64,000 nucleotides of DNA from Parvularcula dongshanensis. Its GTDB lineage: Bacteria; Pseudomonadota; Alphaproteobacteria; Caulobacterales; Parvularculaceae. The notes beneath the pieces were generated by a model, which saw only the letters and a program-made list of their open reading frames with translations, had not been told where the DNA came from and ran no database searches. The position numbers and the translations under genes are program-made. The stretch lies in the NCBI RefSeq assembly GCF_014199615.1, contig NZ_JACHOB010000003.1, forward strand, positions 186,001 to 250,000, read 5' to 3'. How positions within the stretch are numbered: position 1 is the stretch's first letter; each line of letters opens with the position of its first letter. Positions 1,314 through 34,929 of the stretch are shown one piece after another.

Positions 1314-2068
1314 GCGAGACGAGAGGGTCGCGCCGCGATCTAGGCAGGGATGGGCTCGTCCTGGTTCTGCTCGGCCTCGCGCCCGTGGTGATCTACGCCG
1401 TTCTCACGCTCGGTTTCCGCACCGGCCTTCTGGGCCTCGGCATCGTCTTCGGCTCGTTCTCCTGGATCGTTCCCTTCCTCCTCGCCGGCGGCGTGGCGGC
1501 GCTCTTCGGCGGGGCGCTGATGCTTTGGGGACGGACGGTCTTCGCAGGTCTCGTGGGCGTCCTCGTCGGCGTCGCGGCCATCGGCATGGGGATGGGACCG
1601 ACGCTGCTTCGCCAGAAGGCCGGAACCGTGCCGCCGATCCACGACATCTCGACGGACACGCAGAACCCGCCCGCCTTCGTCGCCATCCTGCCGCTGCGTG
1701 AGGGGGCACCGAACCCCGCCGCGTACGACCCCGGACAGACGGCGCAGCAGCTCGAAGCCTATCCCGACGTCAAGACGTTGATCATCGAGCGTCCCTATGC
1801 GGAGGCCTTTCCGATCGTCGTCAAAGCCCTTCGCGGCGAAGGGCTGGACCTCGTCGCGACGGTACCGGCCGAGGGACGGATCGAAGCGGTCGCCACCACG
1901 CGCTGGTTCGGATTCAAGGACGATGTCGTCGTCCGCCTCATCGACGCGCACGGCATCGCGACGGTGGTGGACATCCGCTCGAAGTCGCGGATCGGACGGT
2001 CGGACGTGGGCGCGAACGCCGAGCGCATCCGGGCGATCAGCGAACGGATCGTCGAAGCGTCATCCTGA
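1304..2068 (+). CDS. DUF1499 family membrane protein
   Basis: A 254-residue protein of unknown function. The N-terminal 110 residues contain three hydrophobic segments (about 18-40, 47-70 and 76-100), so the protein sits in the inner membrane. The rest matches the DUF1499 pattern: a [12 protein letters not shown] stretch, then a region rich in Ala and Glu, and the [12 protein letters not shown] and [15 protein letters not shown] motifs near the C-terminus. Two starts are possible: ATG at 1304 inside the end of guaA, or ATG at 1310, which forms a classic ATGA overlap with the guaA stop; the second may be the real one. The position implies coupling to guaA translation, but no functional link is known to me. 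Confidence 0.8.
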
Positions 2069-2078
2069 ACGCAGGATG
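2061..2078. terminator. Perfect 7-bp hairpin between convergent genes
   Basis: CATCCTG and CAGGATG form a perfect inverted repeat with an AACG loop, overlapping the stop codon of the DUF1499 gene and lying just before the end of the small minus-strand frame. There is no T-tract on either side, so it may be a bidirectional terminator or only an mRNA 3'-end stabiliser. Confidence 0.45.
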
Positions 2079-2086
2079 CGGCGGCC

Positions 2087-2236
2087 TTACGCCTCGGCGG
2101 CGCGGCGCTGGCGAGCGTCTTCTTCTTGACGAAGCTGACGGAAGATCCGCTCGGCGGTAAGGCTGCGGCGGTGATCCGTGTTGGCGAGCTTCAAGAAGAG
2201 CTGCCGAGTCTTTGAATTCGAAGACGCCGTTTCCAT
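2087..2236 (-). CDS. Small hypothetical protein (49 aa)
   Basis: A short frame that I do not recognise. From ATG at 2236 it encodes a charged, probably helical protein: KTRQLFLKLANTDHRRS is followed by a Gln/Glu/Arg-rich tail. A purine stretch (AAAGGGGC) about 10 nt upstream of this ATG could serve as ribosome binding site; a GTG at 2269 would add 11 residues. It lies downstream of no other gene, between the hairpin at 2061 and phaC on the same strand. Amino-acid composition (few Cys or Trp, balanced Leu) looks more like a protein than the other frames here, but support is modest. Confidence 0.4.
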   Translation of the reverse strand: METASSNSKTRQLFLKLANTDHRRSLTAERIFRQLRQEEDARQRRAAEA

Positions 2237-2308
2237 CGTCCAAAGCCCCTTTATACCCCTGCGACTCACATTGTGGTCATAGAGGTTAAGGGACTGTAAA
2301 CGAGATAT

Positions 2309-4438
2309 CTACTCTGAGCGAACCCGGACGAAGGATCCGGGCGCATCCTCCAACGGCGTCAATCGGCCGCCGCCCGGCTGCCGGGCGGCCACCTTGCCGG
2401 GCGAGTTCTTCGTCAGCCATCGGTCCCAATACGGCCACCAGCTGTGCTCGCATCGCGACGCCTGCGCCGCCCATTCGTCGAGCGTCTCGGCGCCCTTCGC
2501 GCCCGGGGATGTGTCCGAGGCGGCGTAGTGGTACTTCTTCTTCGCCGGCGGGTTCACGACGCCTGCGATGTGACCGGAACCTGCGAGCAGGAAGCGGGGC
2601 GCCCCCCCGAACATCTTGGCCGAACGGAAGACCGAGCGGGCAGGGGCGATGTGATCGGCTTCGCCCGCCTGGAACAGCGTCGGGATCGTCACCTTCGACA
2701 GGTCGATCCGGACCCCCTCCACCTCCAGCGTGCCCGCCGCCAACGCATTGTCGCGGTAGAAGTTGCGCAGGTAGTAGAGCTGGCACGCCTTGGTCATGCG
2801 CGTCGCGTCGGCGTTCCAGAACAGAAGGTCGAACTTCTTCGCCGCCTTGCCGAGGTAGTAGTTGTCGACGAAGGCCTGCCAGATGAGGTCGTTCGGGCGC
2901 AGCATGTTGAAGGTGCGCGCCATGGCCGAGGCCTCGAGCACGCCGCCCGCGGCGTCCATCTGCCGCTCCATCGCGGCGAGCTGCTTGTCGTCGACGAAGA
3001 CCTTGAGATCGCCCGCTTCGGAAAAGTCCGTCTGCGCCGTGAAGAAGGTCGCCGTCTTGATCCGCTCGTCGCCCGTCGCCGCCATGTGGCCGAGCGAGAC
3101 GGCGAGGAGGGTGCCGCCGATGCAGTAGCCGATGGCGTCGAACTCGTCCGCCCCCGTCGCGGCCTCCGCCGCGTCGAGCGCGGCGTAGACGCCTTTGCGC
3201 ATGTAGCCGGGGAAGGCGACGTCCTGGAGCTCCGGACCCGGATTGACCCAGGAGACGACGAGCACGGTCCGCCCCTGGTCCACGGCCCAGCGGATGAAGC
3301 TGTTCTCGGGCTGAAGGTCCAAGATGTAGAACTTGTTGATCCAGGGCGGGAAGATGACGAGGGGGCGCTTCGCGACCTCCTTCGTCGTCGGCGCGTACTG
3401 GATGAGCTGGATCAGATCGTTCTGGTAGATGACCTTGCCGGGCGTCGTCGCGACGTTCACGCCGACCTCGAAGGCCTCCATGTCGGCCTGACGGATCGCG
3501 AGCTCGCCGTGCCCGCGCTCCAGGTCGGCGAGGTAGTTCTTGAGCCCCCGCGTCCAGTTCTCCCCGCCCGAATTGATGGTCTCCTCGACGACTTCCGGGT
3601 TGAGGCCCGGCACGTTGGTGGGAGAGAAGGCCGCCATGAACTGATCGGCATGGAAGTGTGCGCGCCGCCGCGTTGCCTCGTCGACGCCTTCGGCCGAGCC
3701 GATCGCCCGGTCCACGAAGCGCGTCATCAGGAGGTAGCTCTGCTTGACGAAGTCGAGGGCGGGGTTGTCCGACCAGGCGGGGTGGCGCCATCGCTTGTCG
3801 GTGGCGGCGGCCTCGGCGACGGGCTCGGTCGCGCCGCCGGACATCCGCTCCGCGGCGCTCGTGAAGAGGCGCATGTAGTCGCCCCAGAGCTCCATCTGCA
3901 TCGCGGCGAGCTTCACAGGGTCGGCGGCGAGGGCGGCGCCGACCTCGGCCGCCGCTTCGGTCACGTTGAGGGGATCGGCATGCGGGTCCGGCGTCCGCGG
4001 TCCGCGTTCGGCGGCCCGGCTCGCGACCTCACGCATGACGTTCTGCGCCCGTGCGTTCACGTCGGCCACGGTCTCGGCGAAGCGTGCCGCCTGACGGTAA
4101 GGATCGTTCGCAGGCTTCGGCGACGCCAGGGGCGAAGGCGCGGGGACAGGCTCGGGGGAGGGCGGCGACCCCTCGTTCGCTTGGCTCTTCGCAGGGGCCG
4201 CGCGTTTGGACGTCGGCGCGGCGGCGGCCTTGGTTGCGCGCGGCTTCGCGGCGCTGGCGGGAGCCGTCTTCTTGGGCGTGGGCGCCTTGGCAGGCGCGGC
4301 GGCTTTCTTCTGGGCAGCGTTGGTCGACGCAGCCTTCTTCGCAGGCGCGTTCTTCGCTGCCGCGTTCTTTCCTGCCTCCGGGGCGGACTTGGGCGCGCGA
4401 TGAGTCTTCTGCGTCTTCGGCTTGCTCGTGTCGGCCAT
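2309..4438 (-). CDS. phaC: Class I poly(3-hydroxyalkanoate) synthase with H1-like N-terminal extension
   Basis: Polymerises (R)-3-hydroxyacyl-CoA into polyhydroxyalkanoate storage granules. The alpha/beta-hydrolase core carries the lipase-like box GYCIGG with the catalytic Cys at about residue 439, Asp near 595 (GEADHIAP) and His near 623 (GSGHIAG). At 709 residues it is about 110 longer than usual for class I enzymes (about 590). The excess is N-terminal: residues 1-110 are almost only Ala, Lys, Pro, Ser and Thr (for example AAKNAPAKKAAS), like histone H1 or the DNA-binding tail of the phasin PhaF. The start at 4438 begins MADTSKPK; an internal start would remove the tail. No phaA, phaB, phaR or phasin gene is adjacent, so the gene stands alone here. 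Confidence 0.95.
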   Translation of the reverse strand: MADTSKPKTQKTHRAPKSAPEAGKNAAAKNAPAKKAASTNAAQKKAAAPAKAPTPKKTAPASAAKPRATKAAAAPTSKRAAPAKSQANEGSPPSPEPVPAPSPLASPKPANDPYRQAARFAETVADVNARAQNVMREVASRAAERGPRTPDPHADPLNVTEAAAEVGAALAADPVKLAAMQMELWGDYMRLFTSAAERMSGGATEPVAEAAATDKRWRHPAWSDNPALDFVKQSYLLMTRFVDRAIGSAEGVDEATRRRAHFHADQFMAAFSPTNVPGLNPEVVEETINSGGENWTRGLKNYLADLERGHGELAIRQADMEAFEVGVNVATTPGKVIYQNDLIQLIQYAPTTKEVAKRPLVIFPPWINKFYILDLQPENSFIRWAVDQGRTVLVVSWVNPGPELQDVAFPGYMRKGVYAALDAAEAATGADEFDAIGYCIGGTLLAVSLGHMAATGDERIKTATFFTAQTDFSEAGDLKVFVDDKQLAAMERQMDAAGGVLEASAMARTFNMLRPNDLIWQAFVDNYYLGKAAKKFDLLFWNADATRMTKACQLYYLRNFYRDNALAAGTLEVEGVRIDLSKVTIPTLFQAGEADHIAPARSVFRSAKMFGGAPRFLLAGSGHIAGVVNPPAKKKYHYAASDTSPGAKGAETLDEWAAQASRCEHSWWPYWDRWLTKNSPGKVAARQPGGGRLTPLEDAPGSFVRVRSE

Positions 4439-22684: not shown

Positions 22685-23284
22685 TCAGTCCGCGCCCGCC
22701 TCTTCGCGCTCTTCGATCCGGGCCCGTATGCGGTCCCCGAGCTCGCCGAGCAGTCCCGCCGAGGCTTCGAAGAAGCCGGCGTAGTCCGCGGCGGACTGCG
22801 TCGTCTCAAGCGTGAAGGGCTCGATCGCCAGCACGTCTTCGCTGCCGCCTTCCATCACGATGAACTGCCCCGCCAGGCGCGCCCTGTCCGCGCCCACGCG
22901 GAGGAAGTCGTCGAGCGTGACCCGGACGCGCACGTCGGGATCGAAGCGCCTCGGCCAGGGTTCGGAGAGCACGGTGAGGCCCTCGTCCCGCGCGAGCGAG
23001 GCGGTCAGCGTGCGGGTGATCGCGGTGCGCGGATCCTCCGCCCAGCGGGCGTGCTCGTCCAAGGTGACGGTGGTGCCGTCCGCCGTGCTGGCGACACGGT
23101 CCTCCGACAAGTAGCCGGGAAGCCCCACCCGTTCGAGCGCGACGCGGACGGGCTCGCTCTGCGGGGATGCCGTCACGCGCGTCGGCGAGGGCAGGAGGTA
23201 GCGCTCGGCGCTGATCCCGCCGCCCGCGCAGGCAGAAAGCGCGAGGACGGCGAGGGTGAGGGCGGGGAGGGTTCTTCTGGTCAT
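22685..23284 (-). CDS. pqiC: PqiC/YmbA-family outer-membrane lipoprotein
   Basis: Lipoprotein component of the PqiABC envelope lipid-transport bridge. The N-terminus MTRRTLPALTLAVLALSACAGG has a signal peptide with lipobox LSAC (lipidation at Cys 19). The remainder shows the ABC-type transport auxiliary lipoprotein pattern: RYLLPSP near the start, RVALERVGLPGYLSEDRV and a C-terminal helix. Length 199 residues is normal. Its start overlaps the pqiB stop, so it is the last gene of pqiA-pqiA-pqiB-pqiC. Confidence 0.85.
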   Translation of the reverse strand: MTRRTLPALTLAVLALSACAGGGISAERYLLPSPTRVTASPQSEPVRVALERVGLPGYLSEDRVASTADGTTVTLDEHARWAEDPRTAITRTLTASLARDEGLTVLSEPWPRRFDPDVRVRVTLDDFLRVGADRARLAGQFIVMEGGSEDVLAIEPFTLETTQSAADYAGFFEASAGLLGELGDRIRARIEEREEAGAD

Positions 23285-24882
23285 CAGTCGCGTCCTACGA
23301 TCAGGGCGTTCGGTTGCTCCTCGAGCGTCTGCGCCAGGGCACCGATGCGGCGCGCGGCCTCTCTGAACTCGCGCACCGCGTCGATGAGCTCGACCTGCAG
23401 TTCGGAGTTCGGCGAGACGCTGCCGGTCGCCGCTTCGAGCTGCTCGGCGGCCTGCGCGAAGGCCTGAAGCGCTTCGCTGAGGTCCGCCGGGACCTCGGCG
23501 ACGGCCGGCGATCCGAGAAGGGCGTCGATCTCGGCGAAGGCGGCCGCGGCGTTGGCGACGAGATCCTCGAGGGGGAGGTTCGCGACCTTCTGCAGGATGC
23601 TCTGCACGTCCGCCGCGATCGCCTCCGTCGAGGAGGGGACGGTCGGGAAGGAAGGATAGGGGCTCGCCGCGTAGTCGATGCTGGCGGTCGGCGCGTCCGG
23701 TTGGCTGACGAGGCGGACGGCGAGGGCGCCGGTCAAGAGGTTGCCCGTCGTCAGCTGAACCCGCGAGCCCTCCTCGACGAAGGTGTCGAACCGCGTGCGC
23801 AGCTCGTCCGGGCCGAGGCCTTCGAGGCCCAGGCGGCGCGGCTGGAACTGTAGGACGGCGTAGGTCCGGCTGTCCCCGGCGAGCCCGCCCGCGATGTCGA
23901 GATAGACGTCGACGACCGTGCCGATGCGGATGCCGAGATAGGTGATCGGGGCGCCGGTCTTGAGGCCCGCGACCGACTGATCGAACTCGGCGACGAAGCG
24001 GACGCCTTCCTCCTCCTCGCTCGCGAAGAGGCTCTCCTCGGCCTCGGGGCGGGAGGGGAAGAGCGTGAAGGTCTCGCCGTCCTGGGTGAGCGGGTCGCCG
24101 AGCGCGCCGCCGACCTCGCCGAACGAGACCGCGCCGCTGAGGATGTTGGTGAGGGTACCGACGTCGATCGACACGCCCGAGGTGCTGGCCGAGATGTTGA
24201 CGCCGATCGTGTTCCAGAACCGCGTCGAGGGCGTGACGTACGCGTTGTAGGGCGCTTCGACGAAGGCCTCGTAGCGCACCGCCTCGCCCTCGTCGGTGAG
24301 CTCGCGCGTCTCGATGCGACCGACCTCAAGCCCCCGGTAGAGGAGCGGCGAGCCGGGACGGACGGAGCCGGCGTCCTCGGCCGTCAGCACGATGCGCACG
24401 CCCGGCGTCCCGGCCGGCGTTCGCGGCGGCGTCACCGCGCCTTCGAAGCGGCGGGCGGAGCGGCGAGCCTCCTCCTCCCAATCGACGGCGATGTAGGCGC
24501 CCGACAGCAGGGTCTCGAGGCCGGACACGCCCGCCGAAGAGATCTGAGCGTTGACGACCCAGAACTGGGTCGTCTGGCCGAGGAAGGGTTCGAGTTCCGG
24601 GTCCAGGCGCGCGGAGACCACGACCGACGCCGCGTCCTCGGACAGTCGCACGTCTTCGACCTCGCCCACCGGCACGTCGTTGCGGCGGATCTCGGTGCCC
24701 GACTCGATGCCGGCGGCGCTGGGGAAGGTGATCTCGACCAGGGGCCCCCGGTCCTGCGCCGAGGACCAAATGACCCAAATGCAGATGATCACGGCCGCGA
24801 TCGGCGCGATCCAGACGAGCGAGATCGGGCGGCTGCGCGTCGGAGACACGCGGGGGTAGGGCGGGTGGATCTCGTCGGTCAA
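23284..24882 (-). CDS. pqiB: PqiB-type MCE (MlaD-domain) membrane protein
   Basis: Periplasm-spanning MCE protein thought to form a tube for phospholipid passage between membranes. After a short cytoplasmic start there is one membrane helix (about 18-38, ISLVWIAPIAAVIICIWVIW), then three MCE modules: PLVEITFPSAAGIESGTEIR, VRIVLTAEDAGSVRPGSPLLYRG and VRFVAEFDQSVAGLKTGAPI mark their starts (cut here to the leading segments). A helical C-terminus follows. Length 532 is typical of PqiB. The start is TTG at 24882 in a TTGA overlap with the upstream pqiA-like gene; no ATG is available near the expected N-terminus. Confidence 0.9.
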   Translation of the reverse strand: MTDEIHPPYPRVSPTRSRPISLVWIAPIAAVIICIWVIWSSAQDRGPLVEITFPSAAGIESGTEIRRNDVPVGEVEDVRLSEDAASVVVSARLDPELEPFLGQTTQFWVVNAQISSAGVSGLETLLSGAYIAVDWEEEARRSARRFEGAVTPPRTPAGTPGVRIVLTAEDAGSVRPGSPLLYRGLEVGRIETRELTDEGEAVRYEAFVEAPYNAYVTPSTRFWNTIGVNISASTSGVSIDVGTLTNILSGAVSFGEVGGALGDPLTQDGETFTLFPSRPEAEESLFASEEEEGVRFVAEFDQSVAGLKTGAPITYLGIRIGTVVDVYLDIAGGLAGDSRTYAVLQFQPRRLGLEGLGPDELRTRFDTFVEEGSRVQLTTGNLLTGALAVRLVSQPDAPTASIDYAASPYPSFPTVPSSTEAIAADVQSILQKVANLPLEDLVANAAAAFAEIDALLGSPAVAEVPADLSEALQAFAQAAEQLEAATGSVSPNSELQVELIDAVREFREAARRIGALAQTLEEQPNALIVGRD

Positions 24883-25502
24883 ACGGCACTTCCTTGAAGA
24901 GGCTCAGGGTCGAACTTGTCCCAAAAGACGCGCGGGTCCAGCGCGCCGGCGGACAGCATGGAGAAGATGACGGTCAGCGCGAAGGGCAGGACGCCGACGC
25001 CCGGCCGGACTTGGGCTACCGCGCCGAGCTGCACGAGGGCGACGAGCACGGCCACGACGAAGACGTCGATCATCGACCACCGGCCGACGAGCTCCACGAC
25101 GCGGTGAACGCGGTGCAGCCCCTCGGGGTGGCGCACCCGTGTCCGCGCGGCGGCGATGGCGAGCCAGCCGATCGCGCCGAACTTGGCGGTCGGGATGATG
25201 ATGCTCGCGACGAAGACGACGCCCGCGATGAAGTAGTCATGGTGCTCCAAGAGGACGAAGACGCCGCCGATGATGGTCTGCGGGTCGCCCCTGCCGAGCG
25301 TCACGGTCTCCATGATCGGCAGCAGGTTCGCGGGCACGTAGGCGATGAGCGCGACGAGCCAGAAGGCCCAGACGCGCTGGAGCTGGCGCGGTTGGCGCAG
25401 GACGATGCGGTCGTGGCAGACCGGGCAGCGCGGCTCGTCCGCCGGCACCACGGTGCGGCAGTAGCGGCAGAGCGCGAGGCCTTCTTCCGCGGCGCTCCTC
25501 AC
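24879..25502 (-). CDS. pqiA: PqiA-type membrane protein, second half-length unit
   Basis: Inner-membrane partner of PqiB. The 207-residue product begins with a zinc-ribbon-like segment (CRYCRTVV and CPVCHDRI) and then has four hydrophobic helices, with the family signature PANLLPIMET (first helix) and SMIDVFVVAVLVALVQL. E. coli PqiA is one chain with two such halves; here each half is a separate gene. Start is GTG at 25502 in a GTGA overlap with the preceding gene. No ATG lies nearby, so overlap and conserved N-terminus set the start. Confidence 0.85.
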   Translation of the reverse strand: MRSAAEEGLALCRYCRTVVPADEPRCPVCHDRIVLRQPRQLQRVWAFWLVALIAYVPANLLPIMETVTLGRGDPQTIIGGVFVLLEHHDYFIAGVVFVASIIIPTAKFGAIGWLAIAAARTRVRHPEGLHRVHRVVELVGRWSMIDVFVVAVLVALVQLGAVAQVRPGVGVLPFALTVIFSMLSAGALDPRVFWDKFDPEPLQGSAV

Positions 25503-26146
25503 CGGGCCCGCACCGCCGCCCAGATCGTGTCCTCGCAGAGGTAGACCGTGGCCATGGCCAGAAGGACGACCGTCGCGAGGAGGCCGAGGAAGGCGGGGCC
25601 GAAGCTCAAGTGAGCGAGGCCCGCCACCTTCACGAGCGACACGGCCGTTCCGACGAGGAAGATCTCGGCCATGGCCCACGGCGCGAGGCGCCGAACGACC
25701 TTCAACTCGGCGGCGGCGTAGCGCGGCGCGGGGCGGCCCAGGCGGATCGGTACCGTGACCATGAGCAGCGAGACGATCATCCAAAGCGGAAAGGCGAGGG
25801 TGAAGACGCCGAGGACGACGGCGAGGAGGCCCAACCGCCCCTCGGCGAGCGCGACGACCGCGTCGATCACGGAGATCTGGTTCGCGAGGCCCGCCTCCGA
25901 GACGCCCACGAAGGGGAACGTCACCGCGACGAGGTAGGCGAGGAGCGCAGCGGCGGCGGCGGGGACCACCCGGTCGACCGAACGGTGCTTGCGCGCGAGG
26001 ATAACGGCGTGACAGCGCACGCAGTGAGCGACTTCGCCCTCGTCCAGCGCGGGCCGGCTATGCAGCGCATCGCAGGCCGGACAGGCCAGGAGGTCCAGGC
26101 GCTCGCGCCCGTCAGCGGTCACCATGCGGACCCCGCCCGCCTGCAC
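25499..26146 (-). CDS. pqiA: PqiA-type membrane protein, first half-length unit
   Basis: First gene of the pqi operon. It contains the zinc-ribbon-like pattern CPACDALH and CVRCHAVI, followed by four hydrophobic helices including AYLVAVTFPFVGVSEAG, LWMIVSLLMVTVPI and WAMAEIFLVGTAVSLVK. Together with the next gene it equals one full-length PqiA. Two starts are possible: GTG 26146 or ATG 26125. It lies 58 bp behind the DNA glycosylase gene on the same strand, so the pqi genes may be transcribed from further upstream (gshA). Confidence 0.85.
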   Translation of the reverse strand: MQAGGVRMVTADGRERLDLLACPACDALHSRPALDEGEVAHCVRCHAVILARKHRSVDRVVPAAAAALLAYLVAVTFPFVGVSEAGLANQISVIDAVVALAEGRLGLLAVVLGVFTLAFPLWMIVSLLMVTVPIRLGRPAPRYAAAELKVVRRLAPWAMAEIFLVGTAVSLVKVAGLAHLSFGPAFLGLLATVVLLAMATVYLCEDTIWAAVRAR

Positions 26147-26843: not shown

Positions 26844-28213
26844 AAGGCGTAGCGGTCGAAGAGGACGTTCGTGTTCCCCCCGGCGCCCTCGTAGTCGGCG
26901 AGGAGGTTGCAGGCGAAGCTGTTCCCCGTCCGCGCGATCTCGTGGAGCGGCGCGAGGAATCCGGACTCGTCATTGCCGGAGGCATCGAGCTTGCCGCGCC
27001 GTTTCAGCCCCTCGCTCGCGATGCCGAGGACGTCCTTGGCCACGTCCTGAAGCGTCTCGCCGCCGATCTCGGCCTGAAGGCCATGCTGGGCCGCATCGCC
27101 GCGGAGCTGGCGCAACTCGTCCACGGTCCAGTGCGCCACCCGCTCCGACGCCGCGCCGAGCGCGTGCTCGTCGTAGAGGAGGCCCACCCAGAAGGCCGGC
27201 AGCGCGCAGATGCGGCCCCAACTGCCCGAGTCCGCGCCGCGCATCTCGAGGAACGTCTTCAGCCGCACCTCGGGGAAGGCGGTCGAGAGGTGGTCCTGCC
27301 AGTCGAGGATGGTCGGCTTCATGCCCGGCGCGGCCGGCAACTCTCCCCGGAGGAAGTCGCGGAAGGACTGGCCCGTCGCGTCCATGTACCGCCCGTTCCG
27401 CCAGACGAAGTACATCGGCACGTCGAGCATGTACTGCGTGTACCGCTCGAAGCCGAAGCTCTCGTCGAAGACGAAGTCCAGCATGCCGGTGCGCGCGGCG
27501 TCCGTGTCCGTCCAAATGTGCGCGCGCCAAGAGCGGTAGCCGTTGGGCTTCCCTTCGGTCAGGGGCGAGTTCGCGAAGAGCGCGGTCGCGAGCGGCTGCA
27601 GCGCGAGCGAGGTGCGGAACTTGTTCGCCATGTCGGCTTCGGTCGAGAAGTCGAGGTTCACCTGCACGGTCGCGGTCCGGTGCATCATGTCGAGGCCGAG
27701 GGAGCCGACCTTCGGCATGTAGGCGCGCATGATGCCGTAGCGGCCCTTGGGCACCTTCGGCATGTCGTCGCGCGTCCAGTTCGGGGCCGCGCCGAGGCCG
27801 ATGAAGCCGACCTCGAGCGGCTTCGAGATCGCCTTCACCTCGGCGAGGTGACGATGAACCTCGCCGCAGGTCTGATGGATGGTCTCGAGCGGCGCGCCCG
27901 ACAGCTCGAACTGCCCGCCCGGCTCGAGCGTGATGGAGGCGCCGTCCTTCTTGAGCGCGACGAGAACGCCGTCCTCCTCCAGCGGTTGCCAGCCGAATTC
28001 GGAGGCGAGGCCGCGCAGGACCGCCTGGATCGAGCGTTCGCCCGCGAAGGGAAGGGGGGCGTAGGAATCCCACAGGAAGCCGAACTTCTCGTGCTCGGTG
28101 CCGATGCGCCACTGGTCCGGCGGCTTGCATCCCGAGGCGAGGTAGTCGGTCAGCTCGGAGACGTCTTCGATCTCCGGCAGGTCGCCCCGCGTGCTGGCGT
28201 CGAGCTGTGTCAT
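26840..28213 (-). CDS. gshA: Glutamate-cysteine ligase, plant/alphaproteobacterial type
   Basis: First step of glutathione synthesis: ATP-dependent joining of glutamate and cysteine. The 457-residue protein carries the GCS2-type signatures WRIGTEHEKFGF (about 36-47), the substrate-site ITLEPGGQFELSG (about 93-105), the HRTATVQVNLDF strand and RSWRAHIWTDTD. Two cysteines typical of the redox-regulated plant enzyme are not obviously conserved. The final codons overlap the glycosylase gene by 4 nt. Upstream (28214-28454) is a promoter-sized gap separating it from the divergent antiporter gene. Confidence 0.93.
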   Translation of the reverse strand: MTQLDASTRGDLPEIEDVSELTDYLASGCKPPDQWRIGTEHEKFGFLWDSYAPLPFAGERSIQAVLRGLASEFGWQPLEEDGVLVALKKDGASITLEPGGQFELSGAPLETIHQTCGEVHRHLAEVKAISKPLEVGFIGLGAAPNWTRDDMPKVPKGRYGIMRAYMPKVGSLGLDMMHRTATVQVNLDFSTEADMANKFRTSLALQPLATALFANSPLTEGKPNGYRSWRAHIWTDTDAARTGMLDFVFDESFGFERYTQYMLDVPMYFVWRNGRYMDATGQSFRDFLRGELPAAPGMKPTILDWQDHLSTAFPEVRLKTFLEMRGADSGSWGRICALPAFWVGLLYDEHALGAASERVAHWTVDELRQLRGDAAQHGLQAEIGGETLQDVAKDVLGIASEGLKRRGKLDASGNDESGFLAPLHEIARTGNSFACNLLADYEGAGGNTNVLFDRYAF

Positions 28214-28454
28214 CGCGAGGTCTCCCTCAACCGTAGGCAGAAGAGCAGGGCGGGCCGCAGAGGGGAAAGCGGGACGAACCGCGAGCGGGAAGGCGTCATG
28301 TGCCCGCAGGTAAGGCGATGTGGCGCTCGGGCCAAGGAAAAGAGTCGTCTAAACCGCGCGGCAAGGCGAAGGGGGGTAAGGCGGCGCGGGGGCGAACGCT
28401 GGCCTATCGCCAGCAGGACGGGCATAGCGGCCCCCGGTCGGTCCGGAGGCAGGC

Positions 28455-30428
28455 TTGGACGTCGGCATCATCATCCTCGCGATCTCGGCCCTCTGCGTCG
28501 GGGCGATCCTGGCCGGCGCCGCCGGCCAGAAGATCGACGCACCGATCCTGCTCGTCTTCTTGCTGGCAGGCATGCTCGCGGGCCGCGAAGGGCCGGGCGG
28601 CATCTCCTTCGACGCTTCGCAGGGCGTGCTCGTATGGGGGTCTGCGGCGCTCGCCGCGATCCTGTTCGAGGGCGGCTTGCGAACGGAAGCCTCGGCCTTT
28701 CGCCTCGGCACGAAGCCGGGCCTGTCGCTCGCCCTGATCGGAACGATCGCGACCGCCTTCCTGGTAACGCCCTTCGCCCGCCAGGCCTTCGGCCTCGACT
28801 GGTCCGCGGCGCTCCTGTTCGGCGCGATCGTCAGCTCGACCGACGCCGCCGCCGTCTTCGCGCTCGCGGCCTCCGGGCTGAAGATGCCGAAGCGGATCGT
28901 GGCGGCGCTGGAGGTCGAGTCCGGCTTCAACGACCCGATCGCTATCCTGCTGGTCGTCGGCCTGTCCATCTCGATCGCGACGGAGCCGCTCAGCGCCGGG
29001 GCCTGGGCCTTCACCCTCCTCGCCAAGCTCGTCGTGGGCGCCCTGGTCGGCGGCGCGACGGGGATCGCCGTCCCCAGAATCCTTCAGCGCCTCGCCCTGC
29101 CCAGCGGCCTGATATCGATCCTGACGGCGGGCTTCGGCTTCATGGCCTTCGGCGCCGCCGAGGTTCTCGGCGGCAGCGGGTTCCTCGCCATCTACCTCGC
29201 CGGTCTGACGATCTCCACGGTCGCACCGAAGCAGGCGGAGCGGGTCGGCGGGGTCATGGACGGCATCGCCTGGCTCGCCCAGACGGGGTTGTTCCTGCTC
29301 CTCGGTCTTCTCGTCACGCCGTCGCACCTCGCGACCGTCGCCGCTCCAGCGCTCGGCGTGGCGCTGGCCTTGATCTTCGTCGCGAGGCCGCTCGCGGTCG
29401 CGGGCGCGCTGGCGCCCTTCGGCTTTCGCCAGCGGGAGGTCGGCTTCGTCGCCTGGGTCGGCCTTCGCGGGGCGACGCCCGTCTATCTGGGCTTGCTCCC
29501 CGCCGCCCTCGGCGTGCCGAACGGCAACCTCTACCTGAGCGCCGCGGCGGTCGTCGTGCTCATCTCCCTCGTCATCCAGGGCTGGACCGCACCGGTCGTC
29601 GGCCAGGCCCTGCGCCTGTCCGACGAGGAAGAGCGCTCGCCGATGAGCCGCGGCGGGGCGCTCGCGCGGATCGCCGCAGCGGCAGCCTCCATCGCGGTGG
29701 GCGGCTGGTTCGCCGTCGCGCTGCAACCGCCGGCGGCGCCGTCCCTGGTCACGGTGTCGACGCAGGAAGAGCTTCGCACCGCGCTGAGCGACCGGACCCG
29801 CGTGCCCGCCACCTTCCCGCCGGGCTTCGCCGAGCGGCCGCTCGAGGAACGGCGCGCCCTGTTCATCGACACGATCACCACGGTCGTCGAGGCGTCCAAC
29901 GCGCGCATCCGGTCCGACCGCGCGCGGTTGGAGGCGCTCGCCGAGGCGGAGGAGACGCGCGGACGCCTGACGCTGGAGGAGGAAGCGACGGTGTCGGCGA
30001 TCGCGCGGCGTTACGGCCTGCGCTTCGCGGAGCCCGCTGTCCTTCTCGGCCGGATCGACATCGTCCCGCCGCGCCTGGCCGCGGCGCAGGCCGCCCTGTC
30101 CACGGGCTGGGGCGGCTCTGCGAGCGCCGTCGAGAAGAACGCGGTCTTCGGCCTCGACCTGAAGGACGGCTACCCCAACCTCCTCGCCGCGGCGCGGGCG
30201 CTCACCCGGCTCTACGCCAGCCACGAGCAGTTCGAGGACTTCCGCAGCGTCCGCGCGCAGACGCGCGTCGACGGCGAGGAGCCGAGCGCCAGCGCGCTCG
30301 CGCCTTACGTCGGGCCCTTCGCGAGCGACAGCCAGGCCTATGTCGAGTCCGTCCGCTCGATCGTCGAGAGCGCCGTCTTCGACGAGGTGGAACCAACGGC
30401 GGAAGTGGCCGCGCCGCCGGAGCTCTAG
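28455..30428 (+). CDS. CPA1/NhaP-type cation-proton antiporter fused to a Bax-like glucosaminidase domain
   Basis: Residues 1-385 form a monovalent cation (K+ or Na+)/H+ antiporter with about 12 membrane helices and the CPA1 motif ESGFNDPIAILL (155-166; Asn159-Asp160). A charged linker (389-400) leads to an extra helix (about 403-423), and residues 430-657 are soluble. Within them, 464-600 match the Bax/FlgJ-type N-acetylglucosaminidase family: RIDIVPPRLAAAQAAL, GWGGS, KNAVFGLD and YASHEQFEDFRSVR. The catalytic Glu expected in the ALESGWG motif is Ser549 (ALSTGWG), so the domain may bind rather than cut peptidoglycan. The extra helix would place it in the periplasm. Start TTG 28455 has GGAGG 5 nt upstream. 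The fusion is continuous with no frameshift. Confidence 0.9.
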   Translation: MDVGIIILAISALCVGAILAGAAGQKIDAPILLVFLLAGMLAGREGPGGISFDASQGVLVWGSAALAAILFEGGLRTEASAFRLGTKPGLSLALIGTIATAFLVTPFARQAFGLDWSAALLFGAIVSSTDAAAVFALAASGLKMPKRIVAALEVESGFNDPIAILLVVGLSISIATEPLSAGAWAFTLLAKLVVGALVGGATGIAVPRILQRLALPSGLISILTAGFGFMAFGAAEVLGGSGFLAIYLAGLTISTVAPKQAERVGGVMDGIAWLAQTGLFLLLGLLVTPSHLATVAAPALGVALALIFVARPLAVAGALAPFGFRQREVGFVAWVGLRGATPVYLGLLPAALGVPNGNLYLSAAAVVVLISLVIQGWTAPVVGQALRLSDEEERSPMSRGGALARIAAAAASIAVGGWFAVALQPPAAPSLVTVSTQEELRTALSDRTRVPATFPPGFAERPLEERRALFIDTITTVVEASNARIRSDRARLEALAEAEETRGRLTLEEEATVSAIARRYGLRFAEPAVLLGRIDIVPPRLAAAQAALSTGWGGSASAVEKNAVFGLDLKDGYPNLLAAARALTRLYASHEQFEDFRSVRAQTRVDGEEPSASALAPYVGPFASDSQAYVESVRSIVESAVFDEVEPTAEVAAPPEL

Positions 30429-30459
30429 CGCTCCTGGATACTTGCGCTAGACGGCCAGG

Positions 30460-31506
30460 ATGCGGACCGCCGACTTCGACTTCGACCTGCCCGAGGACAG
30501 GATCGCCCTTCGCCCGGCCGAGCGCAGGGACGCTTCGCGCCTGCTGCACGTGCGGGGCGGGGGCTTCGGCGACCGGCGCTTCGCCGAGCTGCCCGAAATC
30601 CTGCGCCCCGGCGACCTCCTCGTCCTCAACGACACCAAGGTGCTGCCCGCGGCGCTGCGCGGCATCCGGCCCGCGCGGCCGGAGGGCGGGGGCGGGGACG
30701 TCGCGGTCGAGGCGAACCTGCTCGCGCCGGTGGGCGAGGGGGTCTGGCGCGCGCTGGCGCGGCCCGGAAAGCGGTTGCGCGACGGCGACCGGATCGACTT
30801 CGGCGCGGGGCTTTCGGGGACGGTCCTGTCTCGCGATGGCGGGGAAGTCAGCCTGCGGCTCGACGCGGAGGGCGACCTCGATGCGGCGCTGCGCGCGGCG
30901 GGGCACATGCCGCTGCCGCCCTACATCGCGCGTCGCCGCCCCGCGGACGACGAGGACCGCGAGCGGTACCAGACCGTCTTCGCCCAGGCCGAGGGCTCCG
31001 TCGCGGCGCCGACCGCCGGGCTGCACTTCACGCCCGAAGTGCTGGCGACCTGCGAGGCGCGCGGCATCGGGGCGGTCCACGTCACGCTCCACGTCGGGGC
31101 GGGCACCTTCCTGCCGGTGAGCGCGGAGGAGACGTCGGACCACAAGATGCACGCCGAGTGGGGACACGTCTCCGAGGAGGCCGCCGCCGCCATGCGCGAG
31201 GCGAAGGCGCGGGGTGGGCGGATCGTCTGCGTAGGCACGACCGCACTCAGGCTGACCGAGACGGCGGCCGCTTCGGGCGAAGTCCGCGCGTTCTTAGGCG
31301 AGACAGACATCTTCATCACGCCGGGCTACGACTTTCGCGCCTGCGACGTCCTCCTCACCAACTTCCACCTGCCGCGCTCGACACTATTCATGCTGGTCTG
31401 CGCGTTCAGCGGGACGGACACGATGAAGGCCGCCTACGCGCACGCGGTCGAGGCGGGGTACCGCTTCTACTCCTACGGCGATGCGTGCCTCCTGGAGCGC
31501 GAATGA
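30460..31506 (+). CDS. queA: S-adenosylmethionine:tRNA ribosyltransferase-isomerase
   Basis: Adds the epoxycyclopentanediol of queuosine from SAM to 7-aminomethyl-7-deazaguanine in tRNA. The 348-residue protein shows [20 protein letters not shown] at the start, [14 protein letters not shown], the [14 protein letters not shown] motif and the C-terminal [16 protein letters not shown] and YSYGDACLL, all diagnostic. Start ATG 30460 follows the antiporter gene by 31 bp. The stop overlaps tgt (ATGA), the other queuosine gene, as in many bacteria. Confidence 0.97.
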
Positions 31507-32642: not shown

Positions 32643-32678
32643 CGGCCCGCGCGCACGCCTCTACCTCCCGCCTTGCGT

Positions 32679-32754
32679 GGGCCCGTAGCTCAGTTGGTAG
32701 AGCAGCTGACTTTTAATCAGCGGGTCACAGGTTCGATCCCTGTCGGGCTCACCA
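32679..32754 (+). tRNA. tRNA-Lys (anticodon TTT), CCA encoded
   Basis: A 76-nt cloverleaf. Acceptor GGGCCCG pairs with CGGGCTC (one G-T pair), then A and an encoded CCA. D-stem GCTC/GAGC; anticodon stem GCTGA/TCAGC with loop CTTTTAA, anticodon TTT; T-arm ACAGG-TTCGATC-CCTGT. It lies 36 bp after tgt. Confidence 0.97.
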
Positions 32755-32778
32755 TCCCATTCCCGAGGTTCGGACGGC

Positions 32779-34929
32779 TCAGTCGCTTCTGCTGCCGTCC
32801 GCCTCTTGGGTCTGTCCCATCAGCTGCCGCACGAAGTAGGCGTATTCGAGCGCCGTTCGCATGGCGAGCTGCTCTTGGTTGGCCGTGCCCCCGTGCCCGC
32901 CCTCGATGTTCTCGTAGTAGAGGAAGTCGTCGCCGAAGCTCTCGAGCTTCGCGGCCAGCTTGCGCGCGTGGCCGGGGTGGACGCGGTCGTCCTTGGTCGA
33001 GGTGTAGATGAAGGGGACGGGGTAGTCCGCGTCGGCCGACAGGTTCTGGTAGGGCGAGTAGGCGCCGATGAACGCCCGCTCTTCGGGGATGTCGGGGTCG
33101 CCGTACTCTCCGACCCAGGACGCGCCCGCGAGGAGCTTGTCGTAGCGGAACATGTCGATCAGCGGCACGCCGATATCGAGCGCGGCGTATAGGTCCGGCC
33201 GCTGCGTCAGCATCGCGCCCATGAGGAGCCCGCCGTTCGACCGGCCGATCGCGCCGAGCTTGCCCGGCGTCGTCACGCCGTCCGCGATCAGGTCCTCCGA
33301 GATCGCGATGAAATCGTCGAACGCCCGCTGGCGGTTCTCCTTCAGCGCCGCCTCGTGCCAGGCGGGCCCGAACTCGCCGCCGCCGCGAATGTTCGAGAGG
33401 ACGAGCACGCCGCCGCGCGACACCCACATCTTGCCGGCGAGCGCGCCGTTCTGCGGCCGGGCCGGGTCGTCGTAGTAGACAGGCAGGATCGGGATCAGGA
33501 AGCCGCCATAACCGTACTGGATCGTCGGCGCGTCGCCTGCCTCCAGCACGTCGCGCTTGCCCATGACGAAGTAGGGGACGCGCGTGCCGTCCGCGCTCTC
33601 CGCCTCGCGCTGCTCCACGACGACATCGGACGCATCGTAGAAGGCGGGCAGGGCCATGACCTCGGCCATGCCGCTGCCCGCGTCGTAGTGATAGAGCGTG
33701 TCGGGCTGCGTCAGGCTCTCGAAGGACAAAAAGAGGTCCGGCCGGTCGCCGTCCGCCGCCGCGATCGAGACGACGCCGTTCTCGGGCAGCGCCAGCGTCT
33801 CCGCTGTCCAGCCGTCCGGCCCGGGCGTCAGGCGGATCGCCTCGCCCGCCACGTCGTCCAAGAGCTCGACGTAGAGCGCGTCCGAGGTCGCCGCCGCCCG
33901 CTGCACCGCCTGCCGGTCATTGGGCGAGAAGACGGCCTCCGCCGTCATGTCTTCGAGCGACAGGGCGACCAGGTCACCCTGCGCGTACGCCGTGCCCTGA
34001 TAGGACCAGTCCTCGCGCAGAAGGACGATCAGCTTGCCGTCCACGATGTCCTCGAAGTCCGCCCGCTTCGGAATCGGCAGCTTCGTCAGGCCGTCTTCGC
34101 CCTGATAGAAGAGGACGTCCTCGAAGAACGTCTCGGCGCGCAGGACGAAGGCGTATGTCCGGCCGCCCCGATGCACCGTGATGCCGGCGGCGCGAACGTC
34201 CTTAGGCTGGCCCTCGAACACGGGCACCGCTTCGCCGAGCGGCGTGCCGCGCCGCCACCGCTTCACGACGAAGGGGTAGCCCGACTCGGTCATCGTGCCG
34301 TCGCCCCAATCGGTCGCGACGAGCAGCGTGTCCTCGTCCACCCAGGCTGCGTCCTGTTTCGCCTCCGGCAGCACGAAGCCGCCCTCCACGAACGCCTTCG
34401 TCTCGACCGAGAACTCGCGCGCCACGTCGGCGTCCGAGCCGCCATGGCTGAGGGAGACGAGGCAGCGGTCGCTGGCGGGGGCGCAGCTCGCGCCGTGCCA
34501 GACCCAGTCCTCGCCCTCCGCCTCGCGCAGCGCGTCGACATCGAGGAGGATTTCCCACTCAGGCGCGCCGCCCGCATAGGCCTCGATGGACGAACGCCGC
34601 CACAGGCCTTGGACATGCGCCTCGTCCTGCCAGAAGTTGTAGACGTACTCGCCCCTGATCTCGGGCGCGGGGATCCGCGCGTCCGAGGTCAGGACCGCCA
34701 GCGCCTCGTCGTAGAGGTCGTCATAGGCCGGCACCGCCTCGAGGACCGGAAGGGAGCGCTCGTTCCAGGCGCGAACCTTCTCGAGCGTCCGCTCCCCTTC
34801 GACGTCCTCGAGCCACGAGAAGGGATCGGCCCGATCGTAGCCCGCACCTTCGGCGCCAGGAGTCTCCTGCGCGGCGGCGGTGCCGGTCAGAAGCGCCGCC
34901 GCAGCGGCCGTGAGGAGTAGCGATCGCAT
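32779..34929 (-). CDS. S9A prolyl oligopeptidase, secreted
   Basis: Serine peptidase cleaving after proline in short peptides. The 716-residue protein has a signal peptide (MRSLLLTAAAAALLTGTAAA), the N-terminal YDRADPFSWLEDVEGE typical of the family, a seven-bladed propeller in the middle, and a C-terminal hydrolase domain with nucleophile GRSNGG (Ser about 564), the Asp in TSTKDDRVHPGHA and the His in IEGGHGG. The signal peptide predicts a periplasmic enzyme, common for S9A members of aquatic alphaproteobacteria. It converges on tRNA-Lys and is divergent from modABC. Confidence 0.93.
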   Translation of the reverse strand: MRSLLLTAAAAALLTGTAAAQETPGAEGAGYDRADPFSWLEDVEGERTLEKVRAWNERSLPVLEAVPAYDDLYDEALAVLTSDARIPAPEIRGEYVYNFWQDEAHVQGLWRRSSIEAYAGGAPEWEILLDVDALREAEGEDWVWHGASCAPASDRCLVSLSHGGSDADVAREFSVETKAFVEGGFVLPEAKQDAAWVDEDTLLVATDWGDGTMTESGYPFVVKRWRRGTPLGEAVPVFEGQPKDVRAAGITVHRGGRTYAFVLRAETFFEDVLFYQGEDGLTKLPIPKRADFEDIVDGKLIVLLREDWSYQGTAYAQGDLVALSLEDMTAEAVFSPNDRQAVQRAAATSDALYVELLDDVAGEAIRLTPGPDGWTAETLALPENGVVSIAAADGDRPDLFLSFESLTQPDTLYHYDAGSGMAEVMALPAFYDASDVVVEQREAESADGTRVPYFVMGKRDVLEAGDAPTIQYGYGGFLIPILPVYYDDPARPQNGALAGKMWVSRGGVLVLSNIRGGGEFGPAWHEAALKENRQRAFDDFIAISEDLIADGVTTPGKLGAIGRSNGGLLMGAMLTQRPDLYAALDIGVPLIDMFRYDKLLAGASWVGEYGDPDIPEERAFIGAYSPYQNLSADADYPVPFIYTSTKDDRVHPGHARKLAAKLESFGDDFLYYENIEGGHGGTANQEQLAMRTALEYAYFVRQLMGQTQEADGSRSD

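Follow-up and report, generated by a model that had tools for sequence, protein, structure and literature searches.

The window analysed here, a stretch of 64,000 nucleotides from a Parvularcula dongshanensis contig, contains a gene that joins a CPA1-type K+/H+ antiporter, an additional membrane helix and a Bax/GH73-like domain in a single frame (Table 1). The fusion recurs at distinct loci within the order, and the domain has lost the glutamate that serves as catalytic residue in its unfused relatives. Judged from its sequence, the fused Bax-like domain is a conserved pseudoenzyme: its catalytic Glu is lost, its core motifs are kept and all copies found within the order have it attached to the antiporter, as would fit a pseudoenzyme module. 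Its most likely role is to anchor the antiporter or to act as its sensor, facing the wall from the periplasm.

Table 1. Position of the fused gene and its parts in the window.
Feature	Position	Strand	Description
Fused gene	28455..30428	+	657 aa, TTG start, stop codon included
CPA1 K+/H+ antiporter core	28455..29609	+	aa 1-385; Pfam/NCBIfam, alignment, model, structure match
Extra helix	29649..29720	+	aa 399-422; hydropathy peak 406-424, model helix 399-422
Bax/GH73-like pseudoenzyme domain	29742..30425	+	aa 430-657; Pfam/NCBIfam, alignment, model; probably periplasm-facing
Former catalytic motif	30096..30113	+	L548-S549-T-G-W-G553; Ser549 replaces the general acid/base Glu
Short loop	30153..30221	+	between G566 and H590, 23 residues in the window; site of the FlgJ-type beta-hairpin with the second catalytic Glu

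The initial annotation had read the gene as one continuous frame linking a CPA1-type antiporter, an extra helix and a Bax-like domain, and the open frame together with the Pfam and NCBIfam matches bears this out. The 657 codons contain no internal stop, a GGAGG stretch lies a few bases 5' of the TTG start, and the start position is the same in relatives, with GTG in L002 (directly after a stop) and ATG in L003. Full-length matches free of stops were obtained in four genomes (G002, G006, G022, G015), and full-length relatives from the same genus or family are 70, 60, 47 and 47 percent identical to the window protein, all of them unbroken. An assembly or frameshift artefact was considered and ruled out, since the same continuous antiporter-Bax frame was found at 30 distinct loci, which makes assembly error a very unlikely source of the fusion. 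The TAG reported inside the match in genome G303 terminates the gene itself, after 655 residues that comprise both halves.

Other frames in this part of the window deserve brief mention. A 1392-aa open frame at 26942-31120 (+) runs antisense over a gshA-like gene and, in a different frame, over the fusion gene; it probably arises from the high G+C content and is no real gene. The frame at 32673-33011, which overlaps a tRNA-Lys (TTT) gene at 32679-32754 (+), is probably spurious. At 23284-26146 (-), an MlaD-domain protein with three MlaD stretches adjoins two frames that appear PqiA-like by eye, and together they form a probable Pqi-type lipid transport operon.

Of the 30 distinct fused proteins, 28 were found when 398 genomes of the order were scanned with a profile of the last domain (up to seven candidates scored per genome; 28 genomes with one match each, in frames of 649-765 aa). 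The remaining two (L030, L037) came from a contig pattern search covering 18 loci with two patterns, one of which fixes Ala or Ser at the Glu position and thus biases the search towards dead copies. When all candidates were scored in a family-level scan, nine of 62 genomes matched, all in frames of 650-735 aa. Split genes for the antiporter and Bax-like parts were not seen among the candidates scored in the order and family scans, the domain occurring there only in long fused frames. Carriers include Parvularcula oceani, Aquisalinus flavus, A. luteolus, Alkalicaulis satelles, Marinicauda pacifica, Glycocaulis albus and Euryhalocaulis caribicus as well as metagenome-assembled genomes of Oceanicaulis, Maricaulis and others; within the genus, the distribution is patchy (three of ten genomes). 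Beyond the order, matches to the domain are common in the class (169 of 385 genomes) and were also obtained in the phylum (123 of 398), mostly in frames of 250-450 aa among the matches listed. From the best matches of these genomes we took 57 unfused loci, none of which encodes an antiporter in the same frame or within the flank (up to 1.5 kb); likewise, no fusion outside the order was seen among these 57, long-frame matches (e.g., of 582, 589 and 592 aa) lying outside this set. Among 41 relatives, the Pfam GH73 model hit four genomes, each time in the fused gene, so that only the fused form was seen there, as opposed to the frequent Bax-like domains elsewhere in the class; at least one fused copy, that of G015, escaped the model, which hence is an insensitive probe. 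No relatives were found in viral contigs.

By its sequence and NhaP fold, the N-terminal half is a K+/H+ antiporter of the NhaP2 type (PRK05326), with exchange activity predicted. Pfam Na_H_Exchanger matches aa 17-381 (E 1.3e-43), and the NCBIfam K+/H+ antiporter model NF003715 matches aa 3-399 (E 6.5e-123) with 411 bits against a cut-off of 309, while two sister models of the latter score below their own cut-offs on the fused protein. The ND motif, initially placed at about positions 159-160 and called intact, is indeed N159-D160 and belongs to a set of residues (T129-D130, E155, N159-D160, R338) that are invariant in 19 aligned fused proteins. The whole-protein AlphaFold model (pLDDT 84, pTM 0.80) contains discontinuous helices in the antiporter core (116-126/132-140 and 326-335/340-351), and PaNhaP (4cz8) is the best solved-structure match of this part, with a TM-score of 0.80 on the target. 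The NF003715 match ends at model position 402 of 595, and a Pfam scan found no cytoplasmic RCK/CorC tail in the fused protein. An unfused antiporter relative in the genus (L006) gave a weak, sub-threshold CorC_HlyC match (E 9.5e-5). Such a tail is not universal, as antiporter relatives with frames of about 400-450 aa exist. An antiporter search of 299 genomes (E up to 1e-40) gave matches in 61. The 24 best matches are fused, as set by the position they share with matches of the order scan; the other 38 fall into two size classes of frames, of about 400-450 and about 600-710 aa, apart from one frame of 899 with a stop, and L006 is among the longer ones. One genome (G208) carries both a fused copy and a 606-aa copy.

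The placement of the Bax-like domain on the periplasmic side, already suggested by the initial annotation, fits the predicted topology. Thirteen antiporter helices and one more can be read from the whole-protein model; hydropathy alone yields 12 core segments and none for aa 311-363, so that the count of 13 rests on the model. Vibrio NhaP2 has likewise been modelled with 13 helices (PMC6567090), and the tail of YcgO, through which the E. coli protein is regulated, is cytoplasmic (PMC11808508). One extra crossing would then put the last domain into the periplasm, and we infer that it probably faces the outer side of the inner membrane. Four Lys/Arg residues are found in the loop preceding the extra helix, around which model confidence is low (block means of 54-63 for aa 391-430). 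Visual inspection of eight unfused Bax proteins showed a hydrophobic N-terminal segment ahead of the shared region in each.

The likeness of the C-terminal domain to the Bax/GH73 group was judged by several comparisons. Pfam Glucosaminidase (PF01832) matches aa 537-602 with E 1.5e-6 and 29.3 bits against a cut-off of 30.2 (32.8 bits in the genome search), and the NCBIfam model 'protein bax' (NF007681) matches aa 465-617 with E 3.7e-12 and 46 bits against a cut-off of 193. Modelled alone, the C-terminal part is compact and nearly all helical (pLDDT 91, pTM 0.88). For this domain, a putative lysozyme-like helical fold, the best solved match is the GH73 autolysin Auto (3fi7), a weak one (E 0.46, probability 0.82), no match to solved structures reaching E 0.001 or better. 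None of the 30 fused copies departs from the GWG motif or from residues N562, G566, R597, N482 and R489, whereas Asn 586, kept in 53 of the 57 unfused domains, is most often Leu in the fused set (18/30), and Tyr 593, invariant in the 57, is Phe in 29 of 30. As a separate observation, locus L084 holds at 1480-3633 (-) a frame of at least 718 aa that ends in a Glu-bearing GH73 domain and in which about 580 residues ahead of this domain are without any Pfam match.

Loss of the catalytic Glu, noticed at the outset in the window copy as Ser549 in the motif ALSTGWG, proved to be a property of the whole fused set. Ala occupies the position in 28 of the 30 fused proteins, Ser in the window protein and Thr in one more, while all 57 unfused Bax domains have Glu. 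The copy with Thr (L065) is the only one of its kind, and its branch in the antiporter tree is long. For Salmonella FlgJ, the Glu at this position is described as the putative general acid/base; activity further depends on a second Glu, located on a mobile beta-hairpin (PMC4752226). The corresponding loop is 20-34 residues long in the fused proteins (median 24, n = 30) versus 26-42 in the unfused ones (median 38, n = 57), being shorter in 27 of the 30 than in any of the 57, although loops of 34 or fewer residues also occur in 22 of the 57 Glu-bearing unfused copies; the domain model of the window protein has no strands there. The initial view that the rest of the fold had been kept thus stands for the core motifs (GWG, N562, G566) and fails at the hairpin, where the loop is short and the strands are absent in the model.

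As to origin, the 30 fused copies are set apart by a branch with 100/100 support in the unrooted tree of the Bax half, and the tree of the antiporter half needs one change (79/98 support, found in 78% of bootstrap trees, with long-branch warnings). Both trees are consistent with the notion that the fusion probably arose once, support from the antiporter half being moderate. The fused copy of G217 (L048), a genome that belongs to a different family of the order, clusters with the Parvularcula copies in the two trees and is a candidate for lateral transfer.

We propose that an NhaP2-type antiporter devoid of an RCK/CorC tail would have been joined once, in the ancestor of the group, to a whole Bax-type glucosaminidase, whose N-terminal membrane segment was perhaps brought along and became the extra helix. 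The glucosaminidase would then have died by exchange of Glu for Ala and shortening of the hairpin loop, and would have been kept as a non-catalytic module. Probably situated in the periplasm, with two copies per antiporter dimer, the dead module may touch the wall, directly or via a partner bound to it, and may tether or regulate K+/H+ exchange from outside, thereby replacing the usual cytoplasmic regulation. Taken as a whole, with its single fusion, enzyme death and a periplasmic module that tethers or regulates the exchanger, we regard this account as an evenly balanced proposition. The short loop speaks against it, as this loop forms half of the sugar cleft and its shortening could abolish glycan binding; with the strands absent in the model as well, retained glycan binding cannot be assumed. 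The weak match to solved GH73 enzymes, the patchy distribution, the moderate support from the antiporter tree and the dN/dS of the Bax-like part between the window copy and L021 (given below) also count against the account. In a more specific form, the dead domain would read peptidoglycan strands or wall tension on the periplasmic side and directly gate exchange, which we consider possible but unlikely. If true, a wall-gated antiporter would be a one-protein link of wall state to turgor or pH.

Alternatively, the dead domain might act as a platform on which periplasmic wall enzymes dock or are regulated, with the antiporter serving mainly as an anchor or setting local pH or K+. There is precedent in Caulobacter DipM, whose inactive LytM domain binds and stimulates autolysins (PMC10336132), and retention of the six core elements listed above despite the lost active-site Glu would be in line with such a role. 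The antiporter half, however, does not behave like a mere anchor, being strongly conserved with invariant ion-site residues in the 19 aligned proteins. In five of the least diverged pairs (L022/L023, L025/L034, L030/L036, L031/L035, L033/L038; chosen by us, Nei-Gojobori method), its dN/dS is 0.01-0.06 as compared with 0.10-0.27 for the Bax-like part. Neither was a wall-enzyme neighbour recognised in the flanks of 1.5-4 kb, where gene calls are crude. When 28 fused loci, in some cases with one gene represented twice, were searched by tblastn with the fusion and its eight neighbours in the window, the neighbours were found only in the window's own genome. Clustering of 19 loci gave no neighbour pattern common to all, the Maricaulaceae loci sharing a few neighbours (an ABC-ATPase-like cluster at 5/19, a transporter-like one at 4/19; crude longest-frame calls, named by eye). 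On balance, we hold the docking platform to be unlikely.

Another reading, which we judge to be rather improbable, is that the domain, without any binding to the wall, has a purely structural part on the periplasmic side, where it stabilises, orients or dimerises the antiporter. A compact helical domain that is confidently predicted and has lost both the catalytic Glu and the long hairpin loop would suit such a task. The positions that are conserved, however, belong largely to the old enzyme core and are not obviously needed in a spacer, an argument that we do not take as decisive.

One may also ask whether the domain is still an active glycosidase that employs an unusual catalytic residue. 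The GWG motif persists along with much of the conserved core, and acidic residues (Asp/Glu) are enriched in the fused versus the unfused set at 582 (25/30 vs 5/57), 556 and 592 (each 19/30 vs 0/57), 514 (27/30 vs 20/57) and 488 (29/30 vs 42/57), further acid-rich positions of the fused set including 439, 526 and 535. Yet no replacement acid is found at the active-site position itself in any of the 30 fused copies, and no position across the domain is acidic in all of them. The window protein has Ala 556, Ala 582 and Gln 592 and is acidic only at 488 among the five positions compared, in addition to lacking the hairpin strands in its model; in Salmonella FlgJ, the E223Q exchange alone leaves no more than residual activity (PMC4752226). 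A stand-in catalytic acid thus appears unlikely in the window copy, while some other fused members may possess one, and we consider retained glycosidase activity highly improbable.

Selection on the Bax-like domain looks purifying in the close pairs and weak between the window copy and its nearest relative L021 (dN/dS 0.63, as against 0.26 for the antiporter); in distant pairs, the Bax-like dN/dS reaches about 1, with dS being high and unreliable. That the fusion is vestigial or an artefactual read-through, as its patchy distribution, the faster evolution of the domain and the value of 0.63 could be taken to mean, is hardly credible given the continuous frame at 30 distinct loci and the low ratios in the five close pairs.

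We found no description of an antiporter-glucosaminidase fusion in the open-licence literature searched, and a term search of the main text of a broad CPA phylogeny (PMC6181914) yielded no occurrence of glucosaminidase or peptidoglycan. The fusion hints at a possible response of ion flow to cell-wall state. A single conserved protein that joins ion transport and a wall-enzyme domain would offer a direct handle on wall-ion coupling. To our knowledge, the coupling of turgor-setting ion transport to wall state in bacteria is largely open.

Among known systems, YcgO/CvrA and Vibrio NhaP2 (CPA1, PRK05326 models) have the antiporter core, the ND motif and the 13 helices in common with the fusion. 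YcgO, however, ends in a cytoplasmic region that bears a putative RCK and a putative CorC domain, in place of which the fusion has a helix and a domain predicted to be periplasmic. With Bax (NF007681) and the GH73 enzymes FlgJ and Auto, the fused domain shares the helical core, the motifs PP..A.AQ..L..GWG and NAxFG and the C-terminal helices; unlike these, it is without the catalytic Glu, has a short hairpin loop and is joined to a transporter. The MotB flagellar stator is an ion-conducting membrane complex whose C-terminal domain contacts peptidoglycan, but it combines an OmpA-like domain with an ion channel rather than an antiporter. DipM, a degenerate LytM regulator, resembles the fusion in that an inactive wall-enzyme domain is kept in the envelope, although LytM regulators of this type are not known to be joined to a transporter. 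EnvC is another degenerate LytM regulator, and the LytM fold is unrelated to that of Bax/GH73. The fusion would extend the range of folds seen among cell-wall pseudoenzymes by one.
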